A DNA stretch of 64,000 nt from contig JAHLJT010002630.1 of the NCBI GenBank assembly GCA_031308135.1, forward strand, positions 99,693,608 through 99,757,607, read 5' to 3'. Origin of the DNA: Acheta domesticus (taxonomy: Eukaryota; Arthropoda; Insecta; Orthoptera; Gryllidae). Position 1 is the stretch's first letter. Each line of letters begins with the position of its first letter. The translations under genes and the position numbers were made by a program. Of this stretch, positions 7,501 to 40,418 are shown in pieces. The notes under the pieces were generated by a model. It had not been told where the DNA came from and made no database searches. It was given only the letters and a program-made list of their open reading frames with translations.

Positions 7501-9639
7501 GAGTGTTAAAATGATCTGATAATTACAAACCTGGAATTCGTAAACGCTTCCTTTAATTTTATTTTACATGTAGATTTGTGAATTCTAAATCATCGCTAAG
7601 AGTTCGGTATTTAACTTTATACAATTATAACTTATTGTGGAGGATATATTGCTTATGAATCCTTTTATATAAATACCCTAAAGCATTATAAAACTAGTTG
7701 TCAGCAGTCATTTTAAATTTATGAAAATGACTCCCAAATAACACACTTTAGCTACAGCCCGCTACTATACGTAGGTAGTATAGTAGCGGTTCATGTTTAA
7801 TGTGAAATGATTTCAGGCAAGAAATAAAGATCAATTCAAATTCATGATTTATCAGAGTTGTTTCAGACCGCAGATTTCAGCTTTTTGAACTGATATTTTC
7901 AAGAAGTATAACCAATTACTATGTTATTTTATAAATTACAGAAAAGCACTTGAACATTTGATAATAATACAGAAGAGCAATTATTGATAAAACAAAATGC
8001 AAAATACAATATAACGTATGTAACCGAACCCTTTCTCGTATATTTTTATTTCGTTGCAAATAATTCAATCAGTTGATAAAAATCACGCGAAACTCTCGTT
8101 TTTCGCTTACTGTTTATAATGTTTGAAAGCATTATTTTACAGTGCTAAATTTGCTCTGAAATGAACAAATATTTAAAGGTCAAAAAGTCATATTTACTTT
8201 TTTGCGTTTTGCTTACGCTTATTCAGTTCTTGTTCAAACACAAATGATTTTATTCTCAATTCTCTGCGGGTATTGTTTTTCAAAAACATGAATTTTATGT
8301 GACGATGATCCTTTACCTTGTGACGTGCGGTCTCCGAGACCGGTGAGAAAAAAAATCAACGCTGAGCTCTCCTGCCTGGTACGTTTCAATAATTTTGATT
8401 AATCGTACCTTCTTATCTCTCTGTAAACTACATTCACACGTGGGGCAGCGAATTCAGTACCAACCGTTCGCCTTTGAGGGTCAGTTGAAGTTTCAGAGCG
8501 GTCTTGCAGATCGCACACCACCAGTAATAGAACTTTCTTACCACAGTGAATATGTGTGAACATACTGGACGATCCGGGAATGTGTTTCTCAATAATACTA
8601 TAATAATTAATGAGTCCATAAAGTAAATCTCTTTTGGTATTGACAGTGATGTGAACGATTTCGCGTTTGAAAATATACACGATGATAATACTGAAGAGGA
8701 ACTAATTGAAGAACTAGGTGATAAAATAGAATCATTAGAGGAAATAGAAGCAAAGGAAGAGGGAAAATGAGGAAATGAGATGAATACTATAATCGTTTTG
8801 ACAAAAGATGGCTATTTCTAAGAATAAAACAGACACAAGTGGTTAAACGTATGTCTTCAATCAGTAGAAAGATACATTGCACATTTTTATTGATGGATAA
8901 TTTTCGTGTAAGAATGCTATATATAATTCAAATGAAGATATTTTAATGTAGTGAACAATATTTCAAACAATTCTACGATTCTTCACATTGAAACGGTATA
9001 GAACAAATTGTTATCAGAAATTTACACGGCGAGTTATAAATAGTTATATTTTTCATTTTACATATTAATAACAAACCATTTCTTGTTTATTAAGTCTTTG
9101 TTAATGAGAAAAAAATTATCAAGTCAAAATGAAATGGAACACCGAAAATAATCTGTCTAAAACTTTAGGGGTCTCACTGACCGCACGTCACCGGTTACAG
9201 AAGTTTAAAAGCATGTCAACAGTTAACGTTTAAAAGAGTCACCTATTCTTTAGGACGTCTAACATTCTTAAATTTAATTTCAATTCTTCTCTTCAACAGC
9301 AATTGGCCGTGGTCTGAACTTCTGAAAGTGACAATATTGCAAATGGAAGAGACTGGACTGATTCGTAAGTGGAAGGGCGACTTCAACACATCGTTTGGCT
9401 TGGTCACTCGCTTGGGCATATTGCCGGAGACCCCACCACAGCAGAGCTCCAAAGACGCACCAAAGGTTCTGGCGCTGAAAGACGTCGCGGGACATCTGCA
9501 GCTGCTGTGCGCAGGCCTCTTCGCGTCTGCGCTGGCCCTCTGCGCAGAGCTGTGGCGCGGCCACGGGGGCAGGAGTGCGCAGGCGCAGTCGACGCGTGTT
9601 GTGCCAGTGTACGTACAAATAAGCGAATGGGACCTTTGA
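4082..9639 (+). CDS. Divergent ionotropic receptor (IR), 3' three coding exons
   Basis: Joining 4082-4513, 7167-7498 and 9300-9639 gives one open frame of 367 residues plus stop with phases 0, 2 and stop in agreement. It covers the ligand-gated channel core of an insect IR: the end of the S1 lobe, TM1, a short pore loop, TM2, the S2 lobe and TM3. IRs are variant glutamate-receptor-like cation channels in sensory dendrite membranes that detect odours, tastes, humidity or temperature; the ligand cannot be read from this sequence. The N-terminal part (extracellular domain, signal peptide) is not seen upstream; it may lie outside the window or be lost. A second IR on the opposite strand (23304-26358) has an exon of the same length with similar sequence, so these are tail-to-tail paralogues. 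No frameshift or in-frame stop was found, so it may be functional if the 5' part exists. Confidence 0.85.
5110..5490 (-). repeat. 310-bp-unit dispersed repeat, inverted copy
   Basis: Reverse complement of the terminal part seen at 54520-54880: it contains the AACACATGGTGTAGCC block near 5250, TTTCCGTCCGTTTGTGAACA near 5317 and TTTTGGGGGTACTTCACATA near 5438. It is more diverged than the 53-61 kb copies. Confidence 0.65.
5999..6200. repeat. Foldback MITE, family M1
   Basis: Two arms pair around a centre near 6095: CACGGCATTTCGCGTCTTTC on the left and CACGCGAAATGCCGTGAGAT on the right. It is diverged at the outer ends (GTGTGTCTGTCTTCAC) relative to the 39.9-kb copies. It lies within intron 1 of the IR gene. 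Confidence 0.75.
7167..7498 (+). CDS. IR gene 1, exon encoding S2 lobe
   Basis: Acceptor TTTTTGTGTTCCAG ends at 7166; the donor GTGAGT starts at 7499. The exon is 332 nt, starts in phase 0 and ends in phase 2. It begins GRLFDLITNP, the stretch following TM2 in IRs, and ends with PLAYSRR. The paralogous exon 26027-26358 on the minus strand has the identical length and phase and the same start (GRLFDLITNP). Confidence 0.88.
7499..8319. other. IR gene 1 intron, no feature seen
   Basis: AT-rich sequence between exon 2 and the TIR element. A small perfect palindrome CTACTATACGTAGGTAGTATAGTAG lies near 7762-7786. No exon, known repeat or regulatory element was recognised. Confidence 0.5.
8320..9191. 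mobile_element. TIR element inside IR intron (872 bp, possibly piggyBac-derived)
   Basis: GTGACGTGCGGTCTCCGAGACC (start 8320) and its imperfect inverted match ending at 9191 (GGTCTCACTGACCGCACGTCAC) define terminal inverted repeats of about 22 bp with 3-4 differences. An acidic open stretch (EEELIEELGDKIESLEEIEA) at about 8690-8760 resembles the acidic N-termini of piggyBac transposases but is too short to assign. Target-site duplication is not clear; superfamily is open. Confidence 0.5.
9300..9639 (+). CDS. IR gene 1, last exon with end of S2 and TM3
   Basis: The pyrimidine-rich acceptor TTCTCTTCAACAG ends at 9299. The first base completes the arginine codon left by the previous exon. The exon encodes NWPWSELLKVTILQMEETGL, then a variable acidic/proline segment, then the hydrophobic helix beginning LQLLCAGLFASALALC, which is TM3, and a basic cytoplasmic tail ending at TGA 9637-9639. 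The exons at 15324-15607 and 23304-23586 on the minus strand are homologous. Confidence 0.85.
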
Positions 9640-12960: not shown

Positions 12961-13812
12961 GAACGAATATTCTGGAAACGTTCGCTCGATCACTGTTTCT
13001 CACGGGAAAGCAACCTCCTTTTGTTTCATTTTTGTGTAATAAGTTTCGCTCATTACTAAGAGCACCTCTTGGCGCCGAAAACGTAAGCATTCTTTGAGAA
13101 CTGCGGAGTAGGCGACACTAGTACCAACTTTTGAGAGCATAACCTGTTCTCATGGAACGTTAATACAACGCTCATTGCAACTTGTTCCTTGTGCGAGAAC
13201 ACAACTGCTGTGAAGTCACTGTTTCGGCGTTTGAATTTGGCGATAATGCTAATGTAGGTTAAAACGGAAATCTCCAAGCCGTTTTCTTTGTGAATATAGC
13301 GTTTTGCGTTGAGGACCAAGTAGGAGCTGCCACCTGATGGAGGGATGCTGAACAAACAAGTAGATGCCGCCAAAACCTATTTCAAAACACTCAGAGAAAA
13401 GAAGTTTCGTGCATGAAGTTCCGGAGTCTATAATAAAATCGTTAACATGACTTTGCATTTTTCTGCACATCCTTGGTCCACAACAGATGGTTTGTGATTT
13501 CTGTGACGGGCCGGTCTATCAAGATGGTCAGAGAACTTCTAGTCACCCCACACAATGGGAAGGACTTCCTTTTCTTTGATCAAATAACCGAGATCTGAGC
13601 TTCCTAGCGCTTGTCTGGCGGGGGGTCATAATCTGTAAAAGAATAATTAAAAGCTTTTGGAAAAGCACACATCCAAATTAAATATATTGCTCCGTGTTTG
13701 AAAATGAATTTGGTTAAAAAATTTGGGTGAATTAAATAATTGTTGTTGGGCGCTCTTTTAACGTGAAAAAGGGATGAAACGGAATCCATTGTCACATGGT
13801 TCCTGCCTGAAA
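12961..13812. other. Unassigned sequence upstream of the gag fragment
   Basis: Probably the leader or flank of the gag fragment read on the minus strand. Open frames on the minus strand show no recognised domain. The point near 13418 (gcatgaag) is the empty site of the P-like insertion found in copy B. Confidence 0.4.
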
Positions 13813-14799: not shown

Positions 14800-15290
14800 C
14801 AGGTGTTGCTCAAAGAGGAAACGCCGCCACAGGGGAAGAGGGGCGAGGACACTGGGAGAGCGGAGAGAGAGGAAACGGCGGACGCAAGGAGACAGAAGGT
14901 TAGAGTCATTAAGAGCTGGAGATAGATATGGGAAGGAGAGAGCAATTAGAAGAGTGAGAGAGATGGGCAATCGCAGAGCAAGTAGGTGTTGGAGAGAGGT
15001 GTGTAGAAGGATAGTCATTAGGAGTGGGAGAGAGATGAGCTGTGGGAGTGTTGTAGTGAGTAGAAGAGAAATTAAGGGTGGGAGAGTAATTACGGCTGGG
15101 AGAGATATGGGCAGTAGGAGAGTAGGGCTGGTCCTGTGGGGCGAAGGGCGAGGGCGCAGGGCGTGTGCTAGGAGGGCCCGCCGCCCGCCGCCGGGCTGCG
15201 CGGGGCGCAGGAGGCACAGTCAGCATGAGGGAAGGAAGGAGAGAGAGAAAGGGAGATGGGAGGGGAAAGAGGGAGATGATGGGCAAAACA
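14800..15290. repeat. Purine-rich GA tract with length difference between copies
   Basis: GGGAGAG-type degenerate repeats around 14880-15130 followed by a CpG-rich stretch (15130-15215) and GAGAGAAAGGG. Copy B (22990-23270) lacks roughly 200 bp of the degenerate repeats. Long open frames on both strands here come from low-complexity purine composition and are not genes. Confidence 0.65.
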
Positions 15291-15323
15291 ACGTCTGCCG
15301 GGTTTTCCAAGTTGTATACAATT

Positions 15324-15607
15324 CTAAAAATCCTCGCCCGCTCGGTGAAAGCGCCACAGCTCTGCGCAGAAGGCCAGCGCAGACGGCGAAAAGGCCTGCG
15401 CACAGCAGCTGCAGAGGTCCGGAGACGTCTTTCAGCGCCAGAATCTTGGTTTCATTTTCGCACAGCTGTGGTTTGTCCTCCCTTTCTAGACCCATGCGGA
15501 AGAGTGCGCCATAAGATGCGTTAAAATCATCCTTCCACTTACGAAGAAGTCCCGTCTCTTCCACTTGTAGGATAAACAATTTCAAATGTGGAGACCACGG
15601 CCAATTC
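15324..15607 (-). pseudogene. IR gene 2 last exon, copy A (one-base frameshift)
   Basis: On the minus strand the acceptor TCCTTGTCAACAG precedes NWPWSPHLKLFILQVEETGL, the same S2/TM3 exon as 9300-9639. Compared with 23304-23586 it has one additional base in the TM3 region near 15388 (gacggcg versus gacgcg in copy B), which changes the frame after LLCAGLF and removes the normal stop at 15326-15324. Because the other copy is open, this is either an allele-specific null or, more simply, an assembly indel. Confidence 0.75.
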
Positions 15608-16489
15608 CTGTTGACAAGGAGAAAAATTGAAATCTCTTTGAAGATTGTTAGGCGTACTAAAAAAATGGTAACACACTCTAAAGAACGATCATATTGAAAC
15701 ATCTTCCTCACGTAAGAAAACAAATTGTTTGAAAAACAATAAAAGCTGAGAATTGAGACTAATACGATTTGTGTTTTAACAAGAAATTAAAAGTGTTGCT
15801 ACAAATACGTATACTTTTTCGAATCAGTAACGATTGCATAAAATTATAAAACAGTAATTTGTGTCCTTATTAACGTGTCTCAGCTATCACAAGCAAAAAT
15901 CATGGTATCGTATTACGCGCGAAAGTTCAATTTATTCAAAGGTTCAATCATCAACACATTCGACAATACATCCAGAAATTCGAATTTGCAAAGTTGGAAA
16001 ATCATGACATGATGATTGAAGCTAAAGATATTTCACTTCATGAATTCTTTGCTTCAAAATTAGATCTCTAAATATGATTATTAATATTTTTTGGACAATA
16101 TAAGTAGTTTCGACTATTTTTTACAATGTTTCAAATTTGCAAATTGCTATTTCCCGCGCTTCCTCTGCCGGGGAAAATGTTCACGAAATTGACTAAAGTT
16201 TAGATGGATACTGTAATGGGACGGACGCACGCGTCAGGATTCGACGTACGTGCAAAGTATTATTTCTTTAACATTGAGCGCGCTCAAAAGCGGAGGCAAG
16301 AAAAAGTGGGCGCTTTAACTACCTGCGGTGCGCGGGGCATACCGTAGGCAGCCGCCGTCGTATAAAAACACTTTTCCAGATTTAAGGGCGGCAAACTTAT
16401 GAATAATTTCATCAACATTATGCTAAAATCTATAAAAGATTCTAATTGGTGTCACCTCTAAAATGCCCCTGCCCCTCCCTAACTATACT

Positions 16490-17432: not shown

Positions 17433-18432
17433 NNNNNNNNNNNNNNNNNNNNNNNNNNNNNNNNNNNNNNNNNNNNNNNNNNNNNNNNNNNNNNNNNNNN
17501 NNNNNNNNNNNNNNNNNNNNNNNNNNNNNNNNNNNNNNNNNNNNNNNNNNNNNNNNNNNNNNNNNNNNNNNNNNNNNNNNNNNNNNNNNNNNNNNNNNNN
17601 NNNNNNNNNNNNNNNNNNNNNNNNNNNNNNNNNNNNNNNNNNNNNNNNNNNNNNNNNNNNNNNNNNNNNNNNNNNNNNNNNNNNNNNNNNNNNNNNNNNN
17701 NNNNNNNNNNNNNNNNNNNNNNNNNNNNNNNNNNNNNNNNNNNNNNNNNNNNNNNNNNNNNNNNNNNNNNNNNNNNNNNNNNNNNNNNNNNNNNNNNNNN
17801 NNNNNNNNNNNNNNNNNNNNNNNNNNNNNNNNNNNNNNNNNNNNNNNNNNNNNNNNNNNNNNNNNNNNNNNNNNNNNNNNNNNNNNNNNNNNNNNNNNNN
17901 NNNNNNNNNNNNNNNNNNNNNNNNNNNNNNNNNNNNNNNNNNNNNNNNNNNNNNNNNNNNNNNNNNNNNNNNNNNNNNNNNNNNNNNNNNNNNNNNNNNN
18001 NNNNNNNNNNNNNNNNNNNNNNNNNNNNNNNNNNNNNNNNNNNNNNNNNNNNNNNNNNNNNNNNNNNNNNNNNNNNNNNNNNNNNNNNNNNNNNNNNNNN
18101 NNNNNNNNNNNNNNNNNNNNNNNNNNNNNNNNNNNNNNNNNNNNNNNNNNNNNNNNNNNNNNNNNNNNNNNNNNNNNNNNNNNNNNNNNNNNNNNNNNNN
18201 NNNNNNNNNNNNNNNNNNNNNNNNNNNNNNNNNNNNNNNNNNNNNNNNNNNNNNNNNNNNNNNNNNNNNNNNNNNNNNNNNNNNNNNNNNNNNNNNNNNN
18301 NNNNNNNNNNNNNNNNNNNNNNNNNNNNNNNNNNNNNNNNNNNNNNNNNNNNNNNNNNNNNNNNNNNNNNNNNNNNNNNNNNNNNNNNNNNNNNNNNNNN
18401 NNNNNNNNNNNNNNNNNNNNNNNNNNNNNNNN
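17433..18432. other. Assembly gap of exactly 1000 N
   Basis: A round-number gap, therefore a scaffolding placeholder of unknown true size. All apparent open frames spanning it are artefacts. Given the dovetailing flanks, the real gap may be negative (an overlap). Confidence 0.98.
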
Positions 18433-19020: not shown

Positions 19021-19539
19021 ATATGAAGAACGAATATTCTGGAAACGTTCGCTCGATCTCTGTTTCTCACGGGAAAGCAACCTCCTTTTGTTCATTTTTG
19101 TGTAATAAGTTTCGCTCATTACTAGAGCACCTCTTGGCGCCGGGAAAACGTAAGCATTCTTTGAGAACAGCGGAGTGGCGACACTAGTACCAACTTTTGA
19201 GAGCATAACCTGTTCTCATGGAACGTTAATACACGCTCATTGCAACTTCTTCCTTGTGCGAGAACACAACTGCTGTGAAGTCACTGTTTCGGCGTTTGAA
19301 TTTGGCGATAATGCTAATGTAGGTTAAACGGAAATCTCCAAGCCGTTTTCTTTGTGAATATAGCGTTTTGCGTTGAGGACCAAGTAGGAGCTGCCACCTG
19401 ATGGAGGGATGCTGAACTAACAAGTAGATGCCGCCTTATTTCAAAACACTCAGAGAAAAGAAGTTTCGTGCATGAAGCATGGAGGAATATAGAACAGGAG
19501 TGGAAACTCGTGTGGCACCATCTACAATAAGGTACAGGA

Positions 19540-20920
19540 GTTAAATCGACAACACTGCACTCTGTGGCCAGAAAGGATACTTCTTGATCGCTGAACCAGC
19601 TGGCTCAGGTGCACGGTACTCGATCTACTTTTTGGGCATACAATGTAAATAATAACCTCCATAACAGCACGTAGAACGATATTGGCGCGATGTATAAAAA
19701 GTACAAAATTTAAGCAAGGGAAGAAAAAGTTGGCAACTAATAAAAACAAACTTTTTTCTGTATTCATAAAATTTATTCTGAAAACAATCTTACATGATCA
19801 CATAAGTACAATACAAATACAGAAGAATAATAATCTGGTATTGTAGACACCATCAAATTACTATTTAAATAGATTTTGACATACAAATATACTATGTGTT
19901 AATAAAATTATAATTGTATCTCCACCATCTTTTCATATTATAACACAAAACGAATCAATTTTATAATTAGCAGAAATGCTTTCATATCAACATAAAATGA
20001 TTTACATCTTAGATAAGATGTAGTTTATTTTACTATCAATTTATGTCATGACTACGACACTGTTAATACACCACATAATCATAGAAATAAATTGTCACAA
20101 AGGAAATATTTGGTACCTCTTGGACCCGAGTTCATGACTTCTGTTATGCAGACATCTCTATCAACTGGGCTAAGAATCAAACACTGCATTCATGACACTT
20201 TTCTTGCAAGGAAAATAAAAATCTACCTGCATATTTGGTGTATTGCCTGTATTTTTGTGATAATTCATGTTCCATAATTAAAAATAATTTAATTGAACCT
20301 AACATTCACGTAAGAACCTTAAAACAGTTACATTAGAAATTCGTATAAATTCTGTAACAGCAATAGTAACATATTTATACATTTTATTAATCCTGATTAA
20401 ATGGTGATTTTGAAATGTGAAGTTATTGAATTACATATACAGTCAATTAGTTTGACAACACCATTAAAAATTATTACAAACCTACAGAAATTCTTTCCAC
20501 TAGATTGTAGATAGGAGAATATATTCTTATATACATAGTTATACATCCAGAAACATGTCATTCAGACCTCCTGATATTTTAACCTCTTCCAGATCTGCAG
20601 TATAGTTTGAAGAAGCTACATATCCTAATATGAATATTATTAGTTTAAAACATGTGTTCTTTCTTGTAATTCATCACATTTTCATTCAAACCATGTAATT
20701 GGAGGGTAATAAACTGGTAAGATTTAAAAGCTTAAATTCAACACAATGGACTGCAAAGAAGTATCCATTTGTGGTGCAAAGCTAGTGAAAAAAAAATGTA
20801 TAAATAAAAACTTATTCATTGAGGTTGGAATACTACTGTTGCTCTGCCTATTTATTTATGAATCAGTGGTATTCAAGTGAATTGCTCAAGGATATTTTCA
20901 TGCGATTCAGACCTCTTCTT
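19540..20920. other. Interior of the P-like element, no coding sequence seen
   Basis: Strongly AT-rich. The longest minus frame (19522-19767) shows no recognised motif, and nothing resembling the P transposase catalytic or GTP-binding parts was found. Confidence 0.5.
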
Positions 20921-21203
20921 CTCTTACTTCTCCCGCTGATCGGATTCTATGCTTCAGGTTACAGACTTGGTGCCGAGTGACCTGTAATGAAAGCATATAT
21001 TTGAAATATGTAATGCAGGAACACCACACCCGAAATTCTCAAGCATCAAGGTGGTACACTATTAAAATTTAGGCCTATAAAATAATGACATTAAACTCTT
21101 AAGGTATCTGAAATGTTCGGAACGATACATGAAATTGCACAACACTAGACGGAAATACCGTTCAATTACAGTAACTCATCATAACTCAAAATATTTCACT
21201 CAC

Positions 21204-21294
21204 CTTCCCATTTCGGAGGAAAACCTGAAGAAACTTTATTTTCATTATCCTGCCGAACAACTTTGGCACATCCTTGGGCCCAACATTTAGTCAT
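21204..21294 (-). CDS. THAP-like first exon of the P-like element
   Basis: The minus-strand frame from ATG 21294 gives MTKCWAQGCAKVV and continues to GFPPKWE, then a perfect donor (GAAG before GTGAGT at 21203). A start M-x-x-C-x4-C followed by a late FP motif is how THAP zinc-finger domains begin, and P transposases have an N-terminal THAP domain that binds subterminal DNA. An acceptor-like site (TTTCATTACAG) on the minus strand near 20986 would join a short exon that reaches a stop after about eight codons, so any product is truncated here. Only about a third of a THAP domain is visible, so the domain call rests on motif spacing plus the P-like ends. Confidence 0.45.
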
Positions 21295-21989
21295 TGTCAT
21301 CTGCAACACTTGACATAAACCACCAAAAAAGCTCGCAAACGAAATGTCACAAACACGTTGATATGAGCATCGCCGTCTCTTCAGCAAAAAATAAATTAGT
21401 GGATGAAATGAATGGTAGAAGGTTCATAAGCTCGCACCGCTACCTGACGAGCAAATTACCGAAGCAGGGTTTGAAATTACGCATGTACCTTAAAATAGAT
21501 GTCGCCACATGGAAACGATGCTAGCGAATCCTCTAGTCCATACTCTCAAACAGCGAGAGTTTCCCCTCCTTTTGTATATTCCTCCATGCATGAAGTCCCG
21601 GAGTCTATAATAAAAACGTTAACATGACTTTGCATTTTCCTGCACATCCTTGGTCCACAACAGATGGTTCGTGACTTCTGTTCGGGCCGGCCTATCAAGA
21701 GGGTCAGAGAACTTCTGGTCACCCCACACAATGGGAAGGACTTCCTTTTCTTTGATCAAATAACCGAGATCTGAGCTTCCTAGCGCTCGTCTGGCGGGGG
21801 GTCATAATCTGTAAAGAATAATTAAAAGCTCTTGGGAAAGGCACACACCCAAATGAACACATATTGCTCTTTTTTGAAAAATGAATTTGTTAAAAATTTG
21901 GGTGAATTAAATAATTATTGATGGACGCTCTTTTTTAACGTGAAAAAGGGATGAAACGGAATCCATTGTCACCTGGTTCCTGCCTGAAA

Positions 21990-23303: not shown

Positions 23304-23586
23304 CTAAAAATCCTCGCCCGCTCGGTGAAAGCGCCACAGCTCTGCGCAGAAGGCCAGCGCAGACGCGAAAAGGCCTGCGCACAGCAGCTGCAGAGGTCCG
23401 GAGACGTCTTTCAGCGCCAGAATCTTGGTTTCATTTTCGCGCAGCTGTGGTTTGTCCTCCCTTTCTAGACTCATGCGGAAGAGTGCGCCATAAGATGCGT
23501 TAAAATCATCCTTCCACTTACGAAGAAGTCCCGTCTCTTCCACTTGTAGGATAAACAATTTCAAATGTGGAGACCACGGCCAATTC
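23304..23586 (-). CDS. IR gene 2, last exon (copy B, open)
   Basis: Acceptor CTCCTTGTCAACAG on the minus strand, then NWPWSPHLKLFILQVEETGL, a variable part, ILALKDVSGPLQLLCAGLF as TM3 onset, and a short tail ending AGEDF before TAG at 23306-23304. It starts in phase 2 and matches the preceding exon. Frame open throughout, in contrast to copy A (15324-15607). Confidence 0.85.
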
Positions 23587-26358
23587 CTGTTGACAAGGAG
23601 AAAAATTGAAATCTCTTTGAAGATTGTTAGGCGTACTAAAAAAATGGTAACACACTCTAAAGAACGATCATATTGAAACATCTTCCTCACGTAAGAAAAC
23701 ACATTGTTTGAAAAACAATAAAAGCTGAGAATTGAGACTAATACGATTTGTGTTTTAAGAAGAAATTAAAAGTGTTGCTACAACTACATATACTTTTTCG
23801 AATCAGTAACGATTGCATAAAATTATAAAACAGTAATTTGTGTACTTATTAACGTGTCTCAGCTATCACAAGCAAAAATCATGGTATCGTATTACGCGCG
23901 AAAGTTCAATTTATTCAAAGGTTCAATCATCAACACATTCGACAATACATCCAGAAATTCGAATTTGCAAAGTTGGAAAATCATGACATGATGATTGAAG
24001 CTAAAGATATTTTACTTCATGAATTCTTTGCTTCAAAATTAGATCTCTAAATATGATTATTAATATTTTTTTGGACAATATAAGTAGTTTCGACTATTTT
24101 TTACAATGTTTCAAATTTGCAAGTTGCTATTTCCCGCGCTTCCTCTGCCGGGGAAAATGTTTCACGAAATTGACTAAAGTTTAGATGGATACTGTAATGG
24201 GACGGACGCACGCGTCAGGATTCGACGTACGTGCAAAATATTATTTCTTTAACATTGAGCGCGTTCAAAAGCGGAGGCAAGAAAAAGTGGGCGCTTTAAC
24301 TACCTGCGGTGCGCGGGGCATACCGTAGGCAAGCCGCCGTCGTATAAAAACACTTTTTCCAGATTTAAGGGCGGCAACTTATGAATAATTTCATCAACAT
24401 TATGCTAAAATCTATAAAAGATTCTAATTGGTGTCACCTCTAAAATGCCCCTGCCCCTCCCTAACGATACTTCGGTTTTTCTTTCTTGGCGCGTGGGGGG
24501 TGTGTCATCAAAATGGAATATCTCTCGGTATTTCGCGTCGTTCTCCGTTGTGCCGCCAGTAATCGCATGATCGACAGCCGCTCCCGCTCTGTACTCCCAG
24601 CTGCAGAACCGAGAACGACGCGAAATACCGTGAGATATTGCATTGGAAAACGAGTAACGGTGAAAAAGTGGAAAAAATGATAACAAAAACATTATTATTA
24701 TTAATATTATCGACCTTAGTAAATTAACTTAATTCCATTTCAAATCTGTAAGGGAATTTTAGGGTTTTGCACTGGAATTAACTTGCACAAATTTGTTAAA
24801 TAATGTATTCTTTATATTTCATTCAGAAACATTTCTAATAATTAAGTAATACCAGAAAGATATTTTTAGTCTTTCGTTTGAGCAGCTACATGTCATTGTG
24901 ATGCTTTATCCAGAATGATAAAATAAAAAAATCAAAAGAAATAGCGTATTCTTTTTTAAATGTTTCAACTACTGTAATTATTATTGTTATTGTTATTATT
25001 ATTGTTATTATTATTATTGTTATTATTATTAATATTATTATTATTATTGCAAGCGTAATATGGCCATTCATTAGCATGAACTCTTCCGTTTTTCTATGCC
25101 CACATCTCATTTTCTCTCATACAGCTATCGTCCTTATTTTAGCTCAAATACTCGTATACACGTTGCCTCATTGTGGCCCACTGCCCGTTGCCTTCCTATG
25201 GAAGGCTAGCCCGAGTCGTTCCCACACCTTATTGAGCATCGGATGCTCGGCTTCGATGGCCGAGCGAATTTCGCTCGGTGGATTGCGGCCCAGCAAAACT
25301 CTATCCTACTTGCCTGACGTCTAGAGGATTTTTGCGAACTGCCACGACGCTAGAGCAAAATGGTCTCATGCAGGACTCTAGTGTTCCACAAAGGAGGAAA
25401 GAAGAAGAAGAAAAGAGAATGGGAATGGAAAGAAATGAAATTAGAAGTGGGAGAATTTAAATACTTCGGCTTCACATTTTCTTACAACTTAAGAACGGAG
25501 AGACACATTTGGGAAATTAATAGAAGAGCAGTAATTGCATCAAAATAAGTATGGTCTCTCAACATATTCAGCATAGTAGACTTGAAAATACGCGATACTG
25601 CAAGTATTACAAAGTATCAAAACACAGAGAGGCAAACCAAAATATCTCACAAATCCAGGACACAAGTCAGAAGTCATCACTGCAAAATTCCGGTGTGGAA
25701 ATGGGATATTAGGAAACCTCTTTTGAAAGACAGATGGCGAAATCTGCTTCTGGGAAGAAGAAGAAGCAATGGAAAATGTAATTAAATGTGTCCAAGAAGG
25801 AAAAACAAACCAAAAGTAGATAGAGAAAATACTAGATGAAGGAGGAGAGGGAGAGCCCTTATTGAGACTTAAAGAAGAAAGAAGAAAACAGAAAATAAAT
25901 TAGGCACAACTATTCGTTAATTTTCCGTTTTGAGACTTTAGGTAATAACATGATACATGCAAACAAGGTAAGGTATGTCGAGGTTTTAAAAAAGGTGCGA
26001 TTATAATGCCTGTTTTATATACTCACCGTCTACTGCTGAAATGTGTCTGAAATAATGATAAGCTTTCTCTCATTTCTCTATAGAACATAACTTCGGGATA
26101 ATCGGTAGCACCAAATTTCTGCCAATCTTTAGAGCCACGGAATAATGCATAGCGTTCAGTTGTTTTATTTCTGAAAAGTTCTGAAAACTCTTGGTCATTG
26201 TAAAAACTTCGTAAAGAAATTTTCGGTAGAATATCTTGCACTTCTGGCATGAGTTCGTCTCCGCGTATTAACAAAGTAATCTTCTCATTAGCCAGCTGCT
26301 CGAATGTGTTTATCTGTGCTTCATGTTCGGGATTCGTAATAAGGTCAAACAGGCGGCC
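23304..26358 (-). CDS. Second ionotropic receptor gene (IR gene 2), last two exons
   Basis: Exons 26358-26027 and 23586-23304 on the minus strand join in phase to give 204 residues plus stop, covering the S2 lobe and TM3 of an IR channel. They match IR gene 1 exon for exon (332-nt exon; NWPWS start of the last exon), so the two genes are paralogues placed tail to tail. The exon with TM1 and TM2 should lie at higher coordinates, but a Ty3/gypsy element begins at 26494 and a gap and unrelated zinc-finger sequence follow. The 5' part is therefore missing from this assembly: displaced, deleted, or on the far side of a misjoin. Predicted role: a chemosensory cation-channel subunit in the dendritic membrane; ligand unknown. 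Confidence 0.82.
24470..24650. repeat. Foldback MITE, family M1 (copy B)
   Basis: Counterpart of 16490-16668, with arms CTCGGTATTTCGCGTCGTTC and GAACGACGCGAAATACCGTG. Confidence 0.72.
24974..25049. repeat. (ATT)n microsatellite (copy B)
   Basis: ATT/GTT trinucleotide run, longer than the copy-A version at 16994-17048. Confidence 0.9.
25340..25900 (+). mobile_element. Non-LTR retrotransposon 3' fragment
   Basis: In shifting plus-strand frames: YFGFTFSYNLRTERHIWEIN with RRAVIASK near 25460-25548 resembles the post-catalytic reverse-transcriptase segment of insect LINEs. A later part reads AKFRCGN near 25686, then EEEEAMENVIKC, and a lysine/glutamate-rich end GEGEPLLRLKEERRKQK near 25845-25893, the usual order of such a C-terminus. 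Several frameshifts. The first 90 bases are also present at the right edge of copy A. Confidence 0.6.
26027..26358 (-). CDS. IR gene 2, S2-lobe exon
   Basis: Minus-strand acceptor GAATTTTCTGTTCCAG, then GRLFDLITNPEHEAQINTFE; ends FSSRR with donor GTGAGT at 26026. It is 332 nt, the same length and phases as 7167-7498. Only one copy exists because it lies to the right of the overlap. Confidence 0.87.
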
Positions 26359-26493: not shown

Positions 26494-27530
26494 TGTGACC
26501 GTACTTACCTTTGCTGGCTCACGGTTACACATATCATAAAATTTTTTTTTTTGTATGGGTACAGGAGTTCTTTAAGGGGGTTACTTTAATCTACAGTATC
26601 TGGATTCAAAGGCCTACTATCATATGAACAGAATTTATTAGAACAAAAGAACAATAAGACATCATTACATTACCAACATAGCTTGCATCATTGCTTTGAT
26701 CATAATTCTATGGTTCATTCTGTACATCTCTAACCTTCCCACCATTACATTATCATTCCCGCTTATGCAACTTCCAACCCTTTGGAAAAACTACGTGCCA
26801 TTCATATGCTACTACGCACATCATTACTTTCAACGTTACACAGTGAGCATCCTGAACTGGCGTTTCATTTAATTTTCCTTCTATTTGTTCACAATTAGAA
26901 TTACTTATCTGATCGTTACGATCGTCGATTTCTACGTGACGCGTTGCTGCCCGTTCCGCCTGAGGCCGGGAGGTAACCTTGATGCCCGCGATGCTCCGTC
27001 TGCCCACGTGTCACCGCAGCCCGTTTCCAATCCACCGGCGTCGCCTTCCCACGGTTTCTTTCTTCACACGATGACTTTAATCGTATCAGCTCAGCAGCTC
27101 CACCGCATAATCACACATCAGCACAGCCGCACCAACTATCATTAACCCGCATCGCCCACGTGTCCGTGCACTGTTTCCCCTTTTTATTTAAATTTCGTAA
27201 TTATTCTCTCTTAAATAAGTTCACCACAATCCTTACACTCGCTTATTGCACAGTTCATCACAATTTTTCTTTCTTAAATACCTGTTGCCCCGATTACACT
27301 GGATTTCTTGTACATCAAAGCATCGCTCTCTAACCACCATTGCATACCGTCCTCACGCCATGCTGCTCAACCGCCAACTGTCGCTTTTGCGCGGTCAGAC
27401 CGATCAGTTCCCACTACCCCGTGCGCTCGTTCACGACTCTGTCGATCCGTTCCGCCGCGGTTCCTCACTCTGCGCGCTACTTTTGAATGTGGTGGAGCGC
27501 CTATTCTTTGTGTTTTGACCAATACGGTCA
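26494..27530 (-). repeat. 3' LTR of the Ty3/gypsy element
   Basis: About 1037 bp. On the minus strand it is preceded by a G-rich tract (GTGGGGGGGTT, 27534-27544) that is the likely polypurine tract. Open frames inside it are duplicated in the other LTR and have no coding meaning. Confidence 0.92.
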
Positions 27531-27611
27531 AATAACCCCCCCACGTTATCAAGATTTTTTTTTTACACAGTGAAAAATAATCTTCTAATCCATTGCTTCC
27601 AGGGTTCTCCT

Positions 27612-28658
27612 TTAGTTTTGATCTTGTCCCTCATGGTATGCCTTCAAGTTGTAAAAGTTGTATTGTTCGACTGTTTCTCCCCGCTCATCCATTAGTTCCG
27701 CCACATTTGGAGCTTTAATTGCCTTTATCTCATATGGTCCTTCATAAAGGAGGAAAAATTTCGAATAAGTTTTTAGTTTGGGATTTGACACTCTAGGTAC
27801 CCTAACCAATACCTTTTGTCCCACCTTGAATTCGTATGGCGTTTTTCTTCATTTTTGCTAGTCGTACTTCGCTCATTTTGACTAAATTCTCGCGGACTGT
27901 TTCCTGTGATGGCTCCTGCGGTCTTTGGAATACCTCTTCTCTGTCAAGTGCGTATAAAACGTGGGGTGGTCTACGTCCAAAATGTGCCTCGTACGGTGTA
28001 ATAACCGTGCTATCGTGTGGAATGGACGGCAACCACCTATTAATCTCCGGTATTAGCTCTCCCCATCTGTCGTGCTGCTCGTGGCAATATGTTCTGAACA
28101 TTCTAGATAATTCCCTCATGACCCGTTCCGCCGGATTTGATTGTGGATGTCGGATTGACGTAAATACTGGTTTTGTTCCAAGTCCCATCAATGTTTGCTG
28201 CCACTGTCGGCTGGTAAACATGGTTCCATGATCTGACAGTATTCTTTGGTATGGTCCTGCTACGTCAAAAAATATTCTTTAACTTCCTCAGACAAGTTTG
28301 AGCATTCGTTCTCTTTATGGGGTAAATTTGGACGAATTTCGAAAATACGTCAATAGTTACAAATATGTGCTGGTTTCCATTTCTGGTTTTCGGCAGTGGT
28401 CCGTAAAATATCCACGGCTGCTATGTCATTTTTCCCAAGCGGAATTATTGATTGCATGGGTCCTGCAAAGCTCTTGTTTGGGTACTTCGCCTTCTGACAT
28501 AAGTTGCATTGACTCACGACCTTTCTAATTTGCCGGGCCATTCCCCTCCAGTAACATAGTTCTTGTATTACCTTCGTAATTTTCTCCGCTCCGAAATGTG
28601 CCATGGACGTATGAACATGCTTAATCAATTGCTCCGTGATACTCTTAGGTATCCACAA
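27612..28658 (-). CDS. Integrase of the Ty3/gypsy pol (frameshifted)
   Basis: The HHCC zinc-binding module is seen as HVHTSMAHFG followed by CNLCQKAK (about 28620-28480). An AVDI segment near 28430 fits the first catalytic aspartate. The catalytic core continues in other frames to FTSIRHPQSNPAERVMRELS (about 28165), which contains the region of the catalytic glutamate. The C-terminal part ends at 27612 and shows no obvious chromodomain. Frame changes near 28350, 28220 and 27810. Confidence 0.83.
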
Positions 28659-28873
28659 CCCTAAATATTTCTGCGTTTCTTGTCACTCTCCTGTCACCAC
28701 TCCCTGGATTAACTTCCATTCATCTTGCTTCTCCTCCATTTCCTCGTAATCCGGGTCTTCCCGTGACATTCTCCCCTCTTTGTAAGACTTTACCTTACTA
28801 ATGTCAGGATCTTGTTCCTGTAGCGCAATTAGGTCTTCCCAATCGACTAGCGGCGCGTCCGTCACTCCAAGGT

Positions 28874-30278
28874 CTATCGCTGCCACTTGAAACTGCCTTT
28901 CGTTAGCGTAAGCCTCGTTTCCCTTGGAGTCTTCCTGCTTAGTAGGTCGGGTAAGTAGTTTAACTCCCCTTTACAGTGTTCTACATCAAATGAAAATTGC
29001 TGCAGATACAAGGTCCATCTATACAATCGATCATTCTGTGTATGGCATCTGTTTAAAAACGTCAGGGCCTTATGATCTGTGCGCACAATGAAGTGCCTAC
29101 CCATCAAATAGGGTCCTTAATTTGGTAATAGCCCATACAATAGCCCCCGCTTCTTTTTCAGTCGTGGTGTACCGAATCTCTGGGCCTTTGAGCACCCGAC
29201 TAATGATTGCGATGATTTTCTCTCTTCCTTCCACCTCCTGATACAGTACGGCCCCCATTCCGAAGTCGCTACTGTCAGTTTGTAGTATGCACGTTTTGCT
29301 AAAGTCAGGGTGTGCTACCACACAATGCCTGTAAAACATGGCCCTTGATTTCATTAAATGCCTCCTCATGGGAATCATCCCACTTCCATCTCTTCCCTTT
29401 TTTGCAACAGCTTATAAAACGGTGACATTATCATAGCGAAGTTAGGGCAGAACCGAGCATAATAATTACAAGTGCCAATCAGCCGCCGAACTTGTCTGAC
29501 ATTCTTGGCGCCGGAATTTGTTGTATCTCCCGAATCGTGTCCTGCTTCATACCAATGCCCTCTGTCGTGATCTCGTACCCCAGAAAATGGATAGTCCTCG
29601 TAGCCCATCTCGACTTCTTGATGTTCAACACCAAATTGTTTTCCTTCAGTATGCCGAACAGCTCTCGTAAATCTCGAAGATGCTCGGAAATGGATTTGGA
29701 TTTAATCACAACATCATCAACGTAAACTGTCACTCTGTCCTGTAGTCGACCCCCTATTATCCTGTCAATGCACTGAACCAGTGCTGCCCCGCTTGTTTCG
29801 CAGACCAAATGGTACTCTTCTGAAGACGTAGCATATTCCTTCCACCATGAATCCCGTGTACTGTTGGTCTTCCTCAGCGATTTTCATTTGCCAATAGGCC
29901 CTACTGAAGTCCGTGCACGAGAACACCTCGCACCCCTCCGAATCCTCTCAGAATTCCCTCCACTTCCGGAGGAGCGTCTCGGTATGGCAAGGTCACAGCA
30001 TTCAGTCTTCTCGCGTCTAAGCAAATCCGAAGTCCTCCGTCCTTCTTCTTAACGATGACTATCGGACTGGTGTAAGATGTGGACGCCCTCTTTATGATCC
30101 CTTCTTCCGTCATCTCTCTGATCAATTCCGCTACTTCTTTTCGATAGGCTGCAGGTATGGGATAGTTCCTCTCCCTGAATGGTGTATAGTCTGTTAATTG
30201 TATCCTAAATTCGTACTCCTTAATAGGTTCACCGTTTTTCATAAATATTTTCTTGTTCTCTAATAGCAATTCCTTCAA
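28874..30278 (-). CDS. Reverse transcriptase and RNase H of the Ty3/gypsy pol (frameshifted)
   Basis: The fragments run in order. RT fingers/palm contain YTSPIVIVKKKDGGLRICLD near 30140-30030 (30278-29901). The active site YVDD is at 29724-29713, followed by NIKKSRWATRTIHFLGYEIT. The RNase H region is LQTDSSDFGMGAVLY (29290) and then DHKALTFLNRC and LPDLLSRK (29075-28935). These are standard Ty3/gypsy motifs. Frame changes occur near 30276, 29850, 29560, 29377 and 29100, mostly single-base indels. Confidence 0.87.
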
Positions 30279-30833
30279 CTCGATTTTACCCTATCATCCA
30301 ACATCTCAGCTCCGTCAGCCTGTTGCTCTATCCACTCCTCCACGCTTTCACCACTTATTACTCCCGCGCTAATATTGTATTCTTCGTACTCCTCGCCTCC
30401 TGTATCAATCCACATCTCGTCTCCGTTTACAATGATGTGCCCCTTTTCGAGATTTATGACAGCCCGATTGTTCGCCAGGAAATCCATCCCCAATATAACC
30501 GATACAACAAATGCCTCACCACCAGCGCAACCATCTCGTACATTATACCCACCAATACATACTTCTAACATCACTTGTTTCGTAATGGGGCTTGACCTCT
30601 TCTGGGTGGCCCCAATTACATACGACCTCGTCATCGGTAATGCCGCCACATGTTTTCCCCGTCGCCACTAACCTCTCATAATAATCCTCCGAAATCGCGC
30701 TCGCCACACATCCTGTGTCAACCAATGCTTCCACTTCTTCACCTAAGCATGATATCATGACGGTTGGACATTTCCGACGAATCTTCTGGCTGCTTTTTCT
30801 CTTGATCCAGGGCTCATCCTCGTAATCGACCAC
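30275..30833 (-). CDS. Protease domain of the Ty3/gypsy pol (frameshifted)
   Basis: Aspartic protease that matures Gag and Pol. The catalytic D-T-G lies at about 30719-30711 within EALVDTGCVASAIS. The later flap/ILGMDFL part (VILGMDFLANNRAVINLEKG) is in another frame after about 30640. It overlaps the gag end in a different frame, so a translational frameshift is possible in addition to decay. Confidence 0.8.
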
Positions 30834-32635
30834 TTGAAATGACTTGATGGAAACCTCGTTGCCTTACTCCGTGATTGTTCGTGTTGGGGTCTCCCGTCAA
30901 CACGAACTCCCTTCGTTAAATTTGGGTTGTAACCCGTCCCGCTGGTATTTGGTCTCATTTCGTTACCACGTGAACCTTCTCCTCCGTTTCCTCCATTAGG
31001 TTGTCTCGACCGCTCGCCGTTCCTTCGACTTTCGCTCTCCTGCTGCCTATCATATCCTCTTTGGTTTTCTCCACCCCTCTGATCACCCCAAACTCTAGCG
31101 CTTTGCTTTCCTCCCCTCTCTTGCTCTTGAGCGCCCCTCACCATCATTGCATTTACATTCACTTCATTTCTGTTTTTCGGTGCATTAGCGAACGTCAGAT
31201 CGAAGCTCCCTAATGCGTCTTGAAACTTCTCTAACTCTGTATGACACGCGCTCCTAAGCAAATTCTGGGTAGTTGTTGGAAATTGTCTGATTAGGATGCA
31301 CATGATTTCTTGATCGCTCATGGGTGGCGATAACGATCGAAATCCATGATGCGCCTAGCCGCGTAATCTCTCATTCCGCCCCCACCTGATGGCTTGTACA
31401 TACTGTTCATGAGACCCATCTTAAAATTTAGCTGGATATCCTCGCTCCAATATCTTCGAAAAAACATCTGCTTAAACTCCGTTACAGTATTTGGAAATGG
31501 TGTGATGGTGTCTGCCCAGGTCCTCGCGTTATCCTGCAGCATCTGGTATATTACCTGCGTCTTACTCTTCTCAGGGAGACAACTAACCGCTAGGTATCGC
31601 TCCACAGCTCTCATGAACGAGTATGGATTCTCTTTTACGTCGCCCGAAAATTTTAATGAGGATGGTATTGCTATATTAACTGGGCCCCCTCCCACATTTG
31701 GCGCCGTCTTAACCTCTTTTAATTCTTGAACTTCTATTTTGCAATTCCGCGATGTCGTCCTCACATTTCCGAAACGTCCTTCTGCAACTTCCTTTCTACA
31801 GGCTGCCACCGACTCCTTCAATTCTACCTTCGTGTCTGCCACCTCCCTCTTGCAGTTTTCTATCTTCCGTTCCATCCCTTGTGATACTCCCCTTCACTTG
31901 CACATGCAGTGACTCGATGGCTTTATCCTGTGCCTCAATCCGTCCTTCCATCTTTGTGGTAATGTTTCGACTAAGTTCACTGCATATCTCTTGAACTCGC
32001 CCGTCTATTCTTTGTTCCCATGACTCGAACTTCTCCACTATAACCTGGTATTGTTCTTGTATTTGTCTCACTTGCTCTTGTTTATGTTCCTTCAGTTCAT
32101 CGACGATTTTCTTTTGCTCCTCAACCATTCTCCTTTGGGCCCGTTCTTCCTGCTTCTCTAGCTCCTCAGTTATTCTCTTCTCTCGTTCTTCCTGATTCTT
32201 TTGCTCCTCGACCATTCTTCTTTGTGCCCGTTCGTCCTGCTTCTCTAGCTCCTCAACCATTCTTCTTTGTGCCCTTTCTTCCTGTCTCTCTAGTTCCTCA
32301 ACCATTCTTCTATGTGCCCGTTCTTCGAGCTTCTCTTGTCCTGCCATGATTTGATGAAGCATGCTCAGTAAGTCCTCTGTTCCGTTTCTTTTCACCATTC
32401 CCAGATTTGGTGTCGACGCACTCGCCCCCGATAACTCCATTCTGGCTCTATCCGAATCTTCTAGTAACGACTCATCCCATTTACCTCCATCATCCTCATC
32501 ATAATGATCTCTGTCCTCGCGCTTCTCTTCCTCTCCCATCATTGTGCCCGTTTGCTTTTCCATTATGCCCCCAAATTGCACCCTACTACACCTATTTCTG
32601 ACTAATCGCCCTCCTACACGCTTGATTCCACCCAA
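30755..32635 (-). CDS. gag of the Ty3/gypsy element (frameshifted)
   Basis: Structural capsid-type protein that packages the element RNA. The N-terminal part (32635 to about 31870) is a long charged coiled coil built of near-repeats of ERAQRRMVEEL and its variants. After a frame change near 31870 comes the capsid-like part with SLKFSGDVKENPYSFMRAVE and YQMLQDNARTWADT, and after another near 31320 a C-terminal part rich in R, G, N and Q without a clear CCHC knuckle. A likely start is the ATG of MEKQTGTMMGEEE rather than the first in-frame ATG. The breaks make it non-functional as assembled. The gag fragments at 12506-12960 and 18579-19020 are relatives. Confidence 0.8.
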
Positions 32636-32640
32636 AATCT

Positions 32641-34568
32641 ATTGCCCAACTTCAGAATGCTCACAGAGGCATACACCGAATACTACAAATTACTTCACTT
32701 CACACCAACGGCATCCTAATTATTCTCAAAAATGACCCTAACACAATCTGAATTGCTTTGAATTAGATGTGAGTGATGCCGCATATATTACGATCCTATA
32801 CATAACTCATCAAAAACACATACAAGAAAAAAAACACACATCAAAACAAATTATTGACCTCCGTCATCCACCTGGGAACAATTCACAAACAAAATGCACT
32901 CAAGCTCAAAACACCTAGAAATACACACAAAATAATTAAATGTAATTACACTGACATCTGTAACAAAATTCACATTGACATAATTCAACTGAATTCAAAA
33001 TATTCATTAGATTATCATTGAATCAGTCTCAGATAGTCTTCCTGCACATTACTGAATGCAATTATTTTTTTGTCATCCACCTAAAATAAAAAAAAATCTC
33101 GATAAATCTTATTCAGTTGCAACTACTTGAATTGTAATGTTCATCAAATAATTAATGCTACTATGTCTCCAAAATAGCTCATAACTTCATAATATTCATT
33201 TACACACACGTCCAATCAGTGCTTCAAAATGCACTGGGCAGCACCTAAAACCCAAATTTATATTCTAACATGAAGGATTTTGTTCCTAATGTATTGCTCA
33301 TTGAACTCAATGAATACACCTACTGTAATAATACTTCAGAAATCATACCCTAACACACTGTGTTTATTTAGATACACTCTGTAAGGACTCTTCAACAAAA
33401 TTATACCCTGATAATTACACTCATGTACACACTCACTGTAATACCACTTTCCAATAATTATGCCCTAACATATTATTCATTGCCACATATACATTATGAT
33501 CTTGTTTCATAAAAATTATCCTTGTATTGTATGATGATATACACATAGGAATGCCTTACAATAATTACCCTGGTATTTACACTGAATTCAGCGCCTTTTT
33601 ACTGGCCACGTTATAACAATCTTAAAAAGAAAACTACATTCCAATATCTGCACTACCTTAAAACACATTAATAAAATTCCCATCTATTGTTATTTAAACT
33701 CAATAGTCATCAAAATGTTTTCTAAATTGTAAATGAATTATTTCAAACAACACCTTGACACAGAGATTTGCACTTAATGTTCATCACAATGTTTTCTAAA
33801 TTGTAAATGAATTATTTCAAACAACACCTTGACACAGAAATTGGCACTTAATACTTATCAAGATATTTTCTGGATTGCAAAGGAATTAATTTACACAAAC
33901 ACCTTGGCATATGAAGTTGGCACTTAATACTCATCAAAATTTCTTCTAAATTGTAAATGAATATTTCACACAACACCTTGGCAAATGAAATTAAACTAAG
34001 CATTCATCAAATTTTCTTCTAAATTGTAAATGAATTATTTCACACAACACCTTGGCAAATGAAATTAAACTAAGCATTCATCAAATTCTCTTCTAAATTG
34101 TAAATGAATTATTTCAAACAACACCTTGATAAATGAAATTAAACTAAGCATTCATCAAATTCTCTTCTAAATTGTAAATGAATTATTTCACACAACACCT
34201 TGGCAAATGAAATTAAACTAAGGCATTCATCAAATTCTCTTCTAAATTGTAAATGAATTATTTCAAAACAACACCTTGATAAATGAAATTAAACTAAGCA
34301 TTCATCAAATTCTCTTCTAAATTGTAAATGAATTATTTCAAACAACACTTCACTGATTCCACTGCAATATGTTAGAGAATATTGATATATTTAATGCACT
34401 TAAACTCTCTTTGAAATATTTAAAACTGGAATGCTGACATTATCAAGAAATTTACACTGTCTTCTGCCTTTTCCAGTCATGCAACTAATTCAGATACCTG
34501 CTGATTAAAGTATGCACTTATGGGGATTGAATTTGTTCAAATCTAATTACAAGTTACCATCTTTCCCT
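32641..34568 (-). other. Long untranslated leader of the Ty3/gypsy element
   Basis: About 1.9 kb between the primer-binding site and gag with no coding frame. It is AT-rich, with loosely repeated ACTGTAATA/CCCTAACA motifs at 33230-33500 and a 74-bp tandem array at 33700-34350. Confidence 0.7.
33700..34350. repeat. Tandem repeat, about nine ~74-bp units
   Basis: The core TTCTAAATTGTAAATGAATT recurs near 33720, 33790, (diverged 33865), 33943, 34017, 34091, 34165, 34240 and 34315, giving a period of about 74 bp. Units also share CAACACCTTG and ATGAAATTAAACTAAGCATT. The inner units are most alike, as in an array that expands by slippage or unequal exchange. Confidence 0.88.
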
Positions 34569-34589
34569 GTCCCTGAATTTCGGGCGCCA
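34569..34589 (-). promoter_or_regulatory. Primer-binding site of the Ty3/gypsy element
   Basis: Six bases inside the 5' LTR the minus strand reads TGGCGCCCGAAATTCAGGGA. The leading TGGCGCCC resembles the complement of tRNA-Lys 3' ends used by several retroelements. The exact tRNA cannot be assigned without the host tRNA set. Confidence 0.6.
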
Positions 34590-34595
34590 ATAATA

Positions 34596-35634
34596 TGTGA
34601 CCGTACTTACCTTTGCTGGCTCACGGTTACACATATCATAAAATTTTTTTTTGTATGGGTACAGGAGTTCTTTAAGGGGGTTACTTTAATCTACAGTATC
34701 TGGATTCAAAGGCCTACTATCATATGAACAGAATTTATTAGAACAAAAGAACAATAAGACATCATTACATTACCAACATAGCTTGCATCATTGCTTTGAT
34801 CATAATTCTATGGTTCATTCTGTACATCTCTAACCTTCCCACCATTACATTATCATTCCCGCTTATGCAACTTCCAACCCTTTGGAAAAACTACGTGCCA
34901 TTCATATGCTACTACGCACATCATTACTTTCAACGTTACACAGTGAGCATCCTGAACTGGCGTTTCATTTAATTTTCCTTCTATTTGTTCACAATTAGAA
35001 TTACTTATCTGATCGTTACGATCGTCGATTTCTACGTGACGCGTTGCTGCCCGTTCCGCCTGAGGCCGGGAGGTAACCTTGATGCCCGCGATGCTCCGTC
35101 TGCCCACGTGTCACCGCAGCCCGTTTCCAATCCACCGGCGTCGCCTTCCCACGGTTTCTTTCTTCACACGATGACTTTAATCGTATCAGCTCAGCAGCTC
35201 CACCGCATAATCACACATCAGCACAGCCGCACCAACTATCATTAACCCGCATCGCCCACGTGTCCGTGCACTGTTCCCCCTTTTTATTAAATTTCGTAAT
35301 TATTCTCTCTTAAATAAGTTCACCACAATCCTTACACTCGCTTATTGCACAGTTCATCACAATTTTTCTTTCTTAAATACCTGTTGCCCCGATTACACTG
35401 GATTTTCTTGTACATCAAAGCATCGCTCTCTAACCACCATTGCATACCGTTACCGTCCTCCGCCATGCTGCTCAACCGCCAACTGTCGCTTTTGCGCGGT
35501 CAGACCGATCAGTTCCCACTACCCCGTGCGCTCGTTCACGACTCTGTCGATCCGTTCCGCCGCGGTTCCTCACTCTGCGCGCTACTTTTGAATGTGGTGG
35601 AGCGCCTATTCTTTGTGTTTGACCAATACGGTCA
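34596..35634 (-). repeat. 5' LTR of the Ty3/gypsy element
   Basis: Minus-strand ends are TGACCGTA and TACGGTCACA (TG...CA). About 1039 bp, nearly identical to 26494-27530; visible differences include homopolymer length near 34646 and TTACCGTCCTCCGCC versus CGTCCTCACGCC near 35450. Confidence 0.92.
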
Positions 35635-35660
35635 AAATATATATATATAATATATATAAG

Positions 35661-39892: not shown

Positions 39893-40418
39893 CATATACT
39901 GCGATTTTTGTAGGAAGAGCTCTCAAAATAACTCAAATCGCATCTTCGCAATGGAATATGTCACGGCATTTCGTATCATTCACAGTCGTTCCGCTAGATT
40001 TCGCACGATCGCGACTGTATGAAGCAGTGCTTGCGATCATGCGACTTCCACCGGCAAGACCGAGAAAAGACGCGAAATGCCGTGACATATTCCATCGCGA
40101 AGATGGGATTTGAGTTATCTTGAGAGCTCTTCCTAGAAAAATCGCAGTATATACTGCAGTATATACTGCGATTTTTGTAGGAAGAGCTCTCAAGGCCACT
40201 CAAATCCCATCTTCGCGATGGAATATTCACGGCATTTGGCGTCTTTTCTCGGTCTTGCCGGTAGAAGTCGCATGATCGCAAGCACTGCTTCATACGGTGC
40301 GATCGTGCGAAACCTAGCGGAACGACTGTGAATGACACGAAATGCCGTGACATATTCCATCGCGAAGATGGGATTTGAGTGGCCTTGAGAGCTCTTCCTA
40401 CAAAAATCGCAGTATAAA
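39893..40418. repeat. Inverted pair of M1 MITEs forming a ~525-bp palindrome
   Basis: The first copy (39893-40147) and second copy (40165-40418) are reverse complements of each other around a centre at about 40141-40171 (ATCGCAGTATATACTGCAGTATATACTGCGAT region). Outer ends are ATATACTGCGATTTTTGTAG and its inverse. Each copy is itself foldback, so the unit can form a long hairpin or two small ones. Arms differ at a limited number of sites. Confidence 0.85.

Follow-up and report, generated by a model that had tools for sequence, protein, structure and literature searches.

One survey recorded transposons of the P superfamily in every arthropod that it covered (PMC6327564), and non-autonomous P families are already known (PMC1562414). 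P-group elements tend to insert into targets of the form ANAGT...ACTNT, with duplications of 7 bp for 1360 and 8 bp for the P element (PMC3276498). Since published members of the superfamily duplicate either 7 or 8 bp, a 7-bp duplication does not refute membership. In Drosophila, 1360 (Hoppel/ProtoP) is described with 7-bp duplications at 274 of 279 sites, target flanks ANA...TNT and an inner duplication motif GTTNAAC (PMC3276498). Galileo, also from Drosophila, is described as duplicating 7 bp, rarely 8, within an extended palindromic target motif (PMC4168063) with the duplication consensus GTATTAC/GTANTAC, and its terminal repeats are reported as unusually long (PMC3688188).

Here, we analysed a stretch of 64,000 nucleotides from Acheta domesticus (the window), which contains a 2,111-bp element at positions 19478..21588. 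Compared on duplication and target only, this element resembles 1360 in its 7-bp duplication and target flanks and differs from it in that the inner motif GTTNAAC is not seen. It shares the duplication length and a palindromic target motif with Galileo, while its terminal repeats measure 32 bp and no duplication consensus such as that of Galileo is found. We consider it very likely that the element represents a single insertion from a young, non-autonomous P-superfamily family with many copies, that it is heterozygous at this site, and that an autonomous relative mobilises it in trans. Within the superfamily, its assignment to the 7-bp (1360/Galileo-like) kind is our best reading.

The preliminary description had proposed an insertion with 32-bp imperfect inverted ends and a second, subterminal inverted repeat, and both observations held. 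The first letters of the element are CATGGAGG / CATGGAGGAATATA and its last letters CCTCCATG / TATATTCCTCCATG. The left arm of the terminal repeat (19478..19509, plus strand) and the right arm (21557..21588, minus strand) are complementary at 29 of 32 positions (91%), while the best among 200,000 random pairs of 32-mers drawn from the window reached 27; in the family consensus the arms agree at 30/32. The subterminal pair spans 31 nt with 77% complementarity and is unequally spaced, its left arm (19511..19541, plus strand) lying 1 bp and its right arm (21479..21509, minus strand) 47 bp inside the terminal repeat. Among 2,000 dinucleotide-shuffled pairs made from the 150-bp stretches inside the ends, one equalled its score. 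Terminal repeats beginning with CA and accompanied by subterminal inverted repeats are a P-superfamily trait, as in P and Pdre2. The presumed transposase sense is the minus strand, which would place the 5′ end at 21588 in the right arm and the 3′ end in the left arm. The terminal repeat pattern had no matches in viral contigs or in bacterial and archaeal genome contigs, and a literature search with the terminal repeat letters returned three papers with unrelated titles and no description of this family.

The window's own assembly (2.33 Gb in 6,511 contigs) was searched for copies of the element. At least 44 matches were listed, including the window copy, from the best 40 of 836 candidates that were scored, and the family may well be larger. 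Among these 44 listed matches, 34 cover all 2,111 bases (1-2111) at 91-100% identity, window copy included; because only the best candidates were scored, the listed matches lean towards full-length, window-like copies. The same bias applies to the 39 loci fetched, which were the best-scoring among the matches listed. Fetched copies with both ends measure 2,028-2,144 bp. An alignment of 39 rows (38 loci plus the window copy, with L014 omitted) gave a consensus of 2,120 bp and a median pairwise identity of 96.7% (94.6-99.6), and by their similarity to the consensus these 39 copies form two tiers, at 96.4-97.2% and 98.2-99.1%. Many homogeneous copies, preserved ends and a missing transposase are traits of MITEs and other non-autonomous families, and all are present here. 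The closest of the 38 other aligned copies (L009) is 99.34% identical to the window copy. The young age of the family suggested earlier is supported.

This closest copy is found on the same contig, inverted relative to the window copy and about 45 kb from it. It is flanked by the duplication TACACTG, which differs from the CATGAAG of the window copy. Its own duplication indicates an independent insertion nearby, and the pair is consistent with a local hop in either direction between the two sites. For the P element, a local hopping range of about 50-150 kb is given in PMC7776569. At another locus (L014), two elements in the same orientation are separated by about 80 bp, and each is flanked by a separate 7-bp duplication (TCTTACA for one, CCCTGTC for the other). 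L019 and L024, on two small contigs, have the duplication TCCTTAG in common as well as near-identical flanks, and probably represent one filled site on both haplotypes.

The window copy is bounded by perfect 7-bp repeats of CATGAAG at 19471..19477 and 21589..21595. At this copy alone, 7 and 8 bp are undecidable, because the last G of the element is also the base preceding the left repeat. The other genome copies settle the length at 7 bp. The survey comprised 40 rows, from which five with one end only (L029, L043-L046), one that had lost its left end (L038) and the tandem pair L014, which was read separately, were left out, giving 33 single copies with both ends. An exact 7-bp duplication flanks 30 of these 33, as well as both elements of L014. 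The exceptions are L033 with 6 bp, L030 with none, and L020, where the flank reaches Ns after six matching bases. Outside the CATG ends, a perfect 8-bp duplication occurs in none of 32 copies, in a test whose counts ran over both orientations and thus tallied each copy twice. In 4/33 copies, including that in the window, a G precedes the duplication, so that an 8-bp reading is possible by sharing the terminal G. The preliminary description had given 7, perhaps 8 bp and had expected the 8 bp typical of the P element when copies were compared; the first figure stands, and the 8-bp duplication of the P element proper is rejected in favour of 7 bp, as in 1360 and Galileo.

The target motif was derived from 32 copies, since L041 was also omitted for too many mismatches in its ends, and 29 of them have exact duplications. 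These 29 sites are not all independent, as L019 and L024 share a target and the flanks of L025 and L034 are similar. The sequence surrounding the duplication departs from randomness. The motif is the palindrome RNA/N7/TNYG, with R at -2 in 25 sites, A at 0 in 19, T at +8 in 21, Y at +10 in 29 and G at +11 in 17; the left-hand neighbour of the duplication is thus A in 19 sites and the right-hand neighbour T in 21. This motif agrees in part with the one published for P and 1360: the flanks RNA...TNY resemble ANA...TNT, and the GT...AC inside the duplication was not seen, with G at +1 in 5/29 sites and T at +2 in 8/29.

A putative THAP-like first exon, MTMTKCWAQGCAKVVRQDNENKVSSGFPPKWE, lies on the minus strand at 21204..21300. 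Its frame begins at minus-strand position 289 of the element and runs through 32 codons into the splice donor AAG/GTGAGT at 21203. The C-x4-C of this exon followed by VS..FP resembles the start of a THAP domain. In an in silico fusion of the exon with the second half of the THAP domain of the Drosophila P element, the Pfam THAP score rose from 28.0 to 37.0 bits, with the match starting at profile position 1, while seven shuffles gave 26.9-28.7 bits and the native Drosophila domain 34.7. The bare half domain and 39 further fusion controls (19 methionine-led segments and 20 of 40 shuffles) were also run, and the best control gave an E-value of 6.5e-8 compared with 5.8e-9 for the exon. Because the best control comes near to the E-value of the exon, support for its identity as the start of a THAP domain, as judged from sequence, is moderate. 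The consensus exon, MTKCWAQGCANVVRQDKGNKVSSGFPPKWE, reached 38.6 bits in the fusion (eight shuffles, at most 29.8), and a consensus scoring above the window copy is expected if the ancestor had a real THAP exon. The donor obtained the top score among 234 GT sites on both strands in a simple weight matrix entered by hand, and is kept in 39/39 aligned copies. The exon itself shows 4 synonymous and 28 non-synonymous changes among the aligned copies (ratio 1.8), with no purifying selection among them, and has gaps in 13 of the 39 aligned rows and a stop in two, all of which speaks against a present-day function.

The window copy has no long coding frame, and the remainder of a transposase is missing. 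Frames on the minus strand of the consensus extend to at most 91 codons; in single copies, the exon frame was surveyed. Of the domains of P-superfamily transposases (THAP, RNase H-like and GTP-binding), the window copy thus has the N-terminal THAP-like exon only. Pfam searches found no family in six frames of the element, none with the exon alone apart from a weak chance match to Tim17 (E 0.14), and no THAP in spliced guesses, which gave a weak chance match to SANTA (E 0.091). As candidates for the start of a second exon, 8 of 21 listed acceptors were scored, of which minus-strand position 808, with the best pyrimidine tract, had the highest THAP score at 34.5 bits. As another reached 33.9 and the tract of position 808 is no longer the best in the consensus, this position is not claimed as an acceptor. 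A search of solved structures with the exon returned one chance match (E 0.59), and the exon pattern had no matches in viral contigs. With a 75-aa frame as query, the protein database yielded one relative, P0001 (source 'lgn'), a prediction made from public sequence, in which the exon is identical to that of the family consensus. The family has therefore been sequenced elsewhere, perhaps from the same species. Among longer database proteins, there was no candidate with three 5-residue words in common with the exon.

The ends, the 7-bp duplication, the target flanks and the THAP-like exon together point to an element of the P-superfamily type, as first proposed. It is unlikely that the element belongs to another cut-and-paste superfamily, such as hAT, Merlin, Mutator or a Dada-like group, with CATG ends that arose by chance and an exon that is either a chance resemblance or captured from the host. 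Such an origin would suit the lack of a transposase in Pfam searches of the exon and six frames, the bases inside the duplication, which depart from the P-group motif, and the THAP test itself, which uses a 30-residue piece and in which the best of 39 controls came within about 11-fold of the exon in E-value. Against it, 30 of 33 copies show 7 bp rather than the 8 bp of hobo (hAT), so that the 8-bp duplication of hAT is not what is found here; the flanks of the target, RNA...TNY, are similar to the P-group motif, and the exon combines a conserved splice donor with a consensus that outscores the window copy. We therefore retain the P superfamily as the preferred assignment.

The sequence surrounding the element occurs twice in the window. 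A near-copy without the element forms the end of the left contig (12361..17432, plus strand), followed by an assembly gap of 1,000 N (17433..18432), and the near-copy with the element forms the start of the right contig (18433..25429, plus strand). With the element excluded, 96.7% of 4,817 aligned bases are identical between the two. As for other gaps of at least 8 bases, the empty copy lacks 9 and 21 bases, and the filled copy lacks 209. As the preliminary description had noted near 13418, the first near-copy contains an exact empty site, with a single CATGAAG at 13412..13418 in the context GTG-CATGAAG-TTCC and surrounding sequence otherwise matching that of the filled copy. The matching stretches border the 1,000-N gap directly on both sides, one starting with the base that follows it and the other finishing with the base that precedes it. 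Since a suffix of the left contig is thus the prefix of the next, the near-copies are best read as unmerged haplotype contigs, and this arrangement suggests that the element is probably present on one haplotype only. The presence/absence difference proposed earlier is thereby supported between two near-copies that behave like haplotypes. About 5 kb of the assembly, including any gene located there, is then probably falsely duplicated through a haplotype overlap scaffolded in a row, and users of this stretch of the assembly should be cautious.

It is quite improbable that the near-copies represent a true tandem duplication of which one member received the element, in which case the site would not be heterozygous. 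Both copies do share a scaffold, with order and orientation preserved, but their similarity is bounded exactly by the 1,000-N gap, as overlapping haplotype contigs would give, and a tandem duplication would require its junction to fall exactly inside that gap. P elements can excise, and a site could be restored by repair that uses an empty homologue, but the empty copy has a single copy of the duplication and no footprint of the ends, so that an excision product instead of a never-occupied site is very improbable.

Several other features were observed in the window. Three mutually related frames (9181-9639, 15220-15786 and 23304-23765) may resemble C-terminal exons of insect ionotropic receptors. 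No Pfam match was found for them, and none of 74 candidate protein relatives reached E 0.01; the latter two are one stretch seen in both near-copies. A likely LTR retrotransposon occupies 26494-35636, with direct repeats at 26494-27532 and 34596-35636 (98.8% identity) and, between them on the minus strand, a weak match to an integrase core (27805-28278) that falls below the Pfam cut-off. A palindrome of about 522 bp (39894-40416, 93.5% self-complementary) resembles a foldback or MITE family; related sequence occurs around 128-324, 5989-6200 and 55699-55932. Finally, a 452-codon open frame at 56634-57992 contains 13 C2H2 zinc-finger stretches.

In the mechanism that we propose for the P-superfamily insertion, the cut-and-paste transposase of an autonomous relative would recognise the 32-bp ends and probably also the subterminal repeats, and would use a 7-bp stagger when inserting the element at palindromic RNA/N7/TNYG sites, generating the 7-bp duplication. 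The 2.1-kb element may derive from a longer ancestor by loss of everything but the two ends and, on the minus strand, the beginning of a THAP-type transposase gene, and the shortened element itself would then have amplified. The window copy would reside on one haplotype and be absent from the other, the unmerged contigs of which were scaffolded in a row. Deleted P elements make repressor products. There is a very slim chance that the 2.1-kb copies are similarly transcribed from the right end into a spliced or truncated THAP-half peptide that dampens the autonomous partner; if true, this would be a self-regulating parasite pair outside Drosophila that is still jumping locally today.

Compared with the P element of D. 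melanogaster, the element in the window shares the beginning of its ends, which in P are 31 bp long and start with CATG (CATGATGAAATAACATA; PMC2895639), as well as subterminal inverted repeats, with inner sites unequally spaced at the two ends, a THAP-type N-terminus, internally deleted copies and local hopping, as described in PMC7776569 and PMC2895639; it differs in having duplications of 7 bp rather than 8. The P-MITEs of Anopheles gambiae are likewise described as high-copy non-autonomous derivatives that keep P ends, but their duplications are 8 bp and their consensus sequences 0.2-0.7 kb long (PMC1562414), compared with 2.1 kb and a remnant exon here. Zebrafish Pdre2 (THAP9) resembles the element in its ends beginning with CAT, its subterminal inverted repeats and its internally deleted copies, and differs in its 13-bp ends and 8-bp duplications (PMC10983969). 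As the P superfamily was found in all arthropods surveyed, this locus is of value mainly as a clean example, open to testing, of recent mobility and of the split between 7- and 8-bp duplications. It adds to the P superfamily a well-supported member with 7-bp duplications, as in 1360 and Galileo, for which the target motif is clear, one copy is very recent and a near-copy of the locus is empty.
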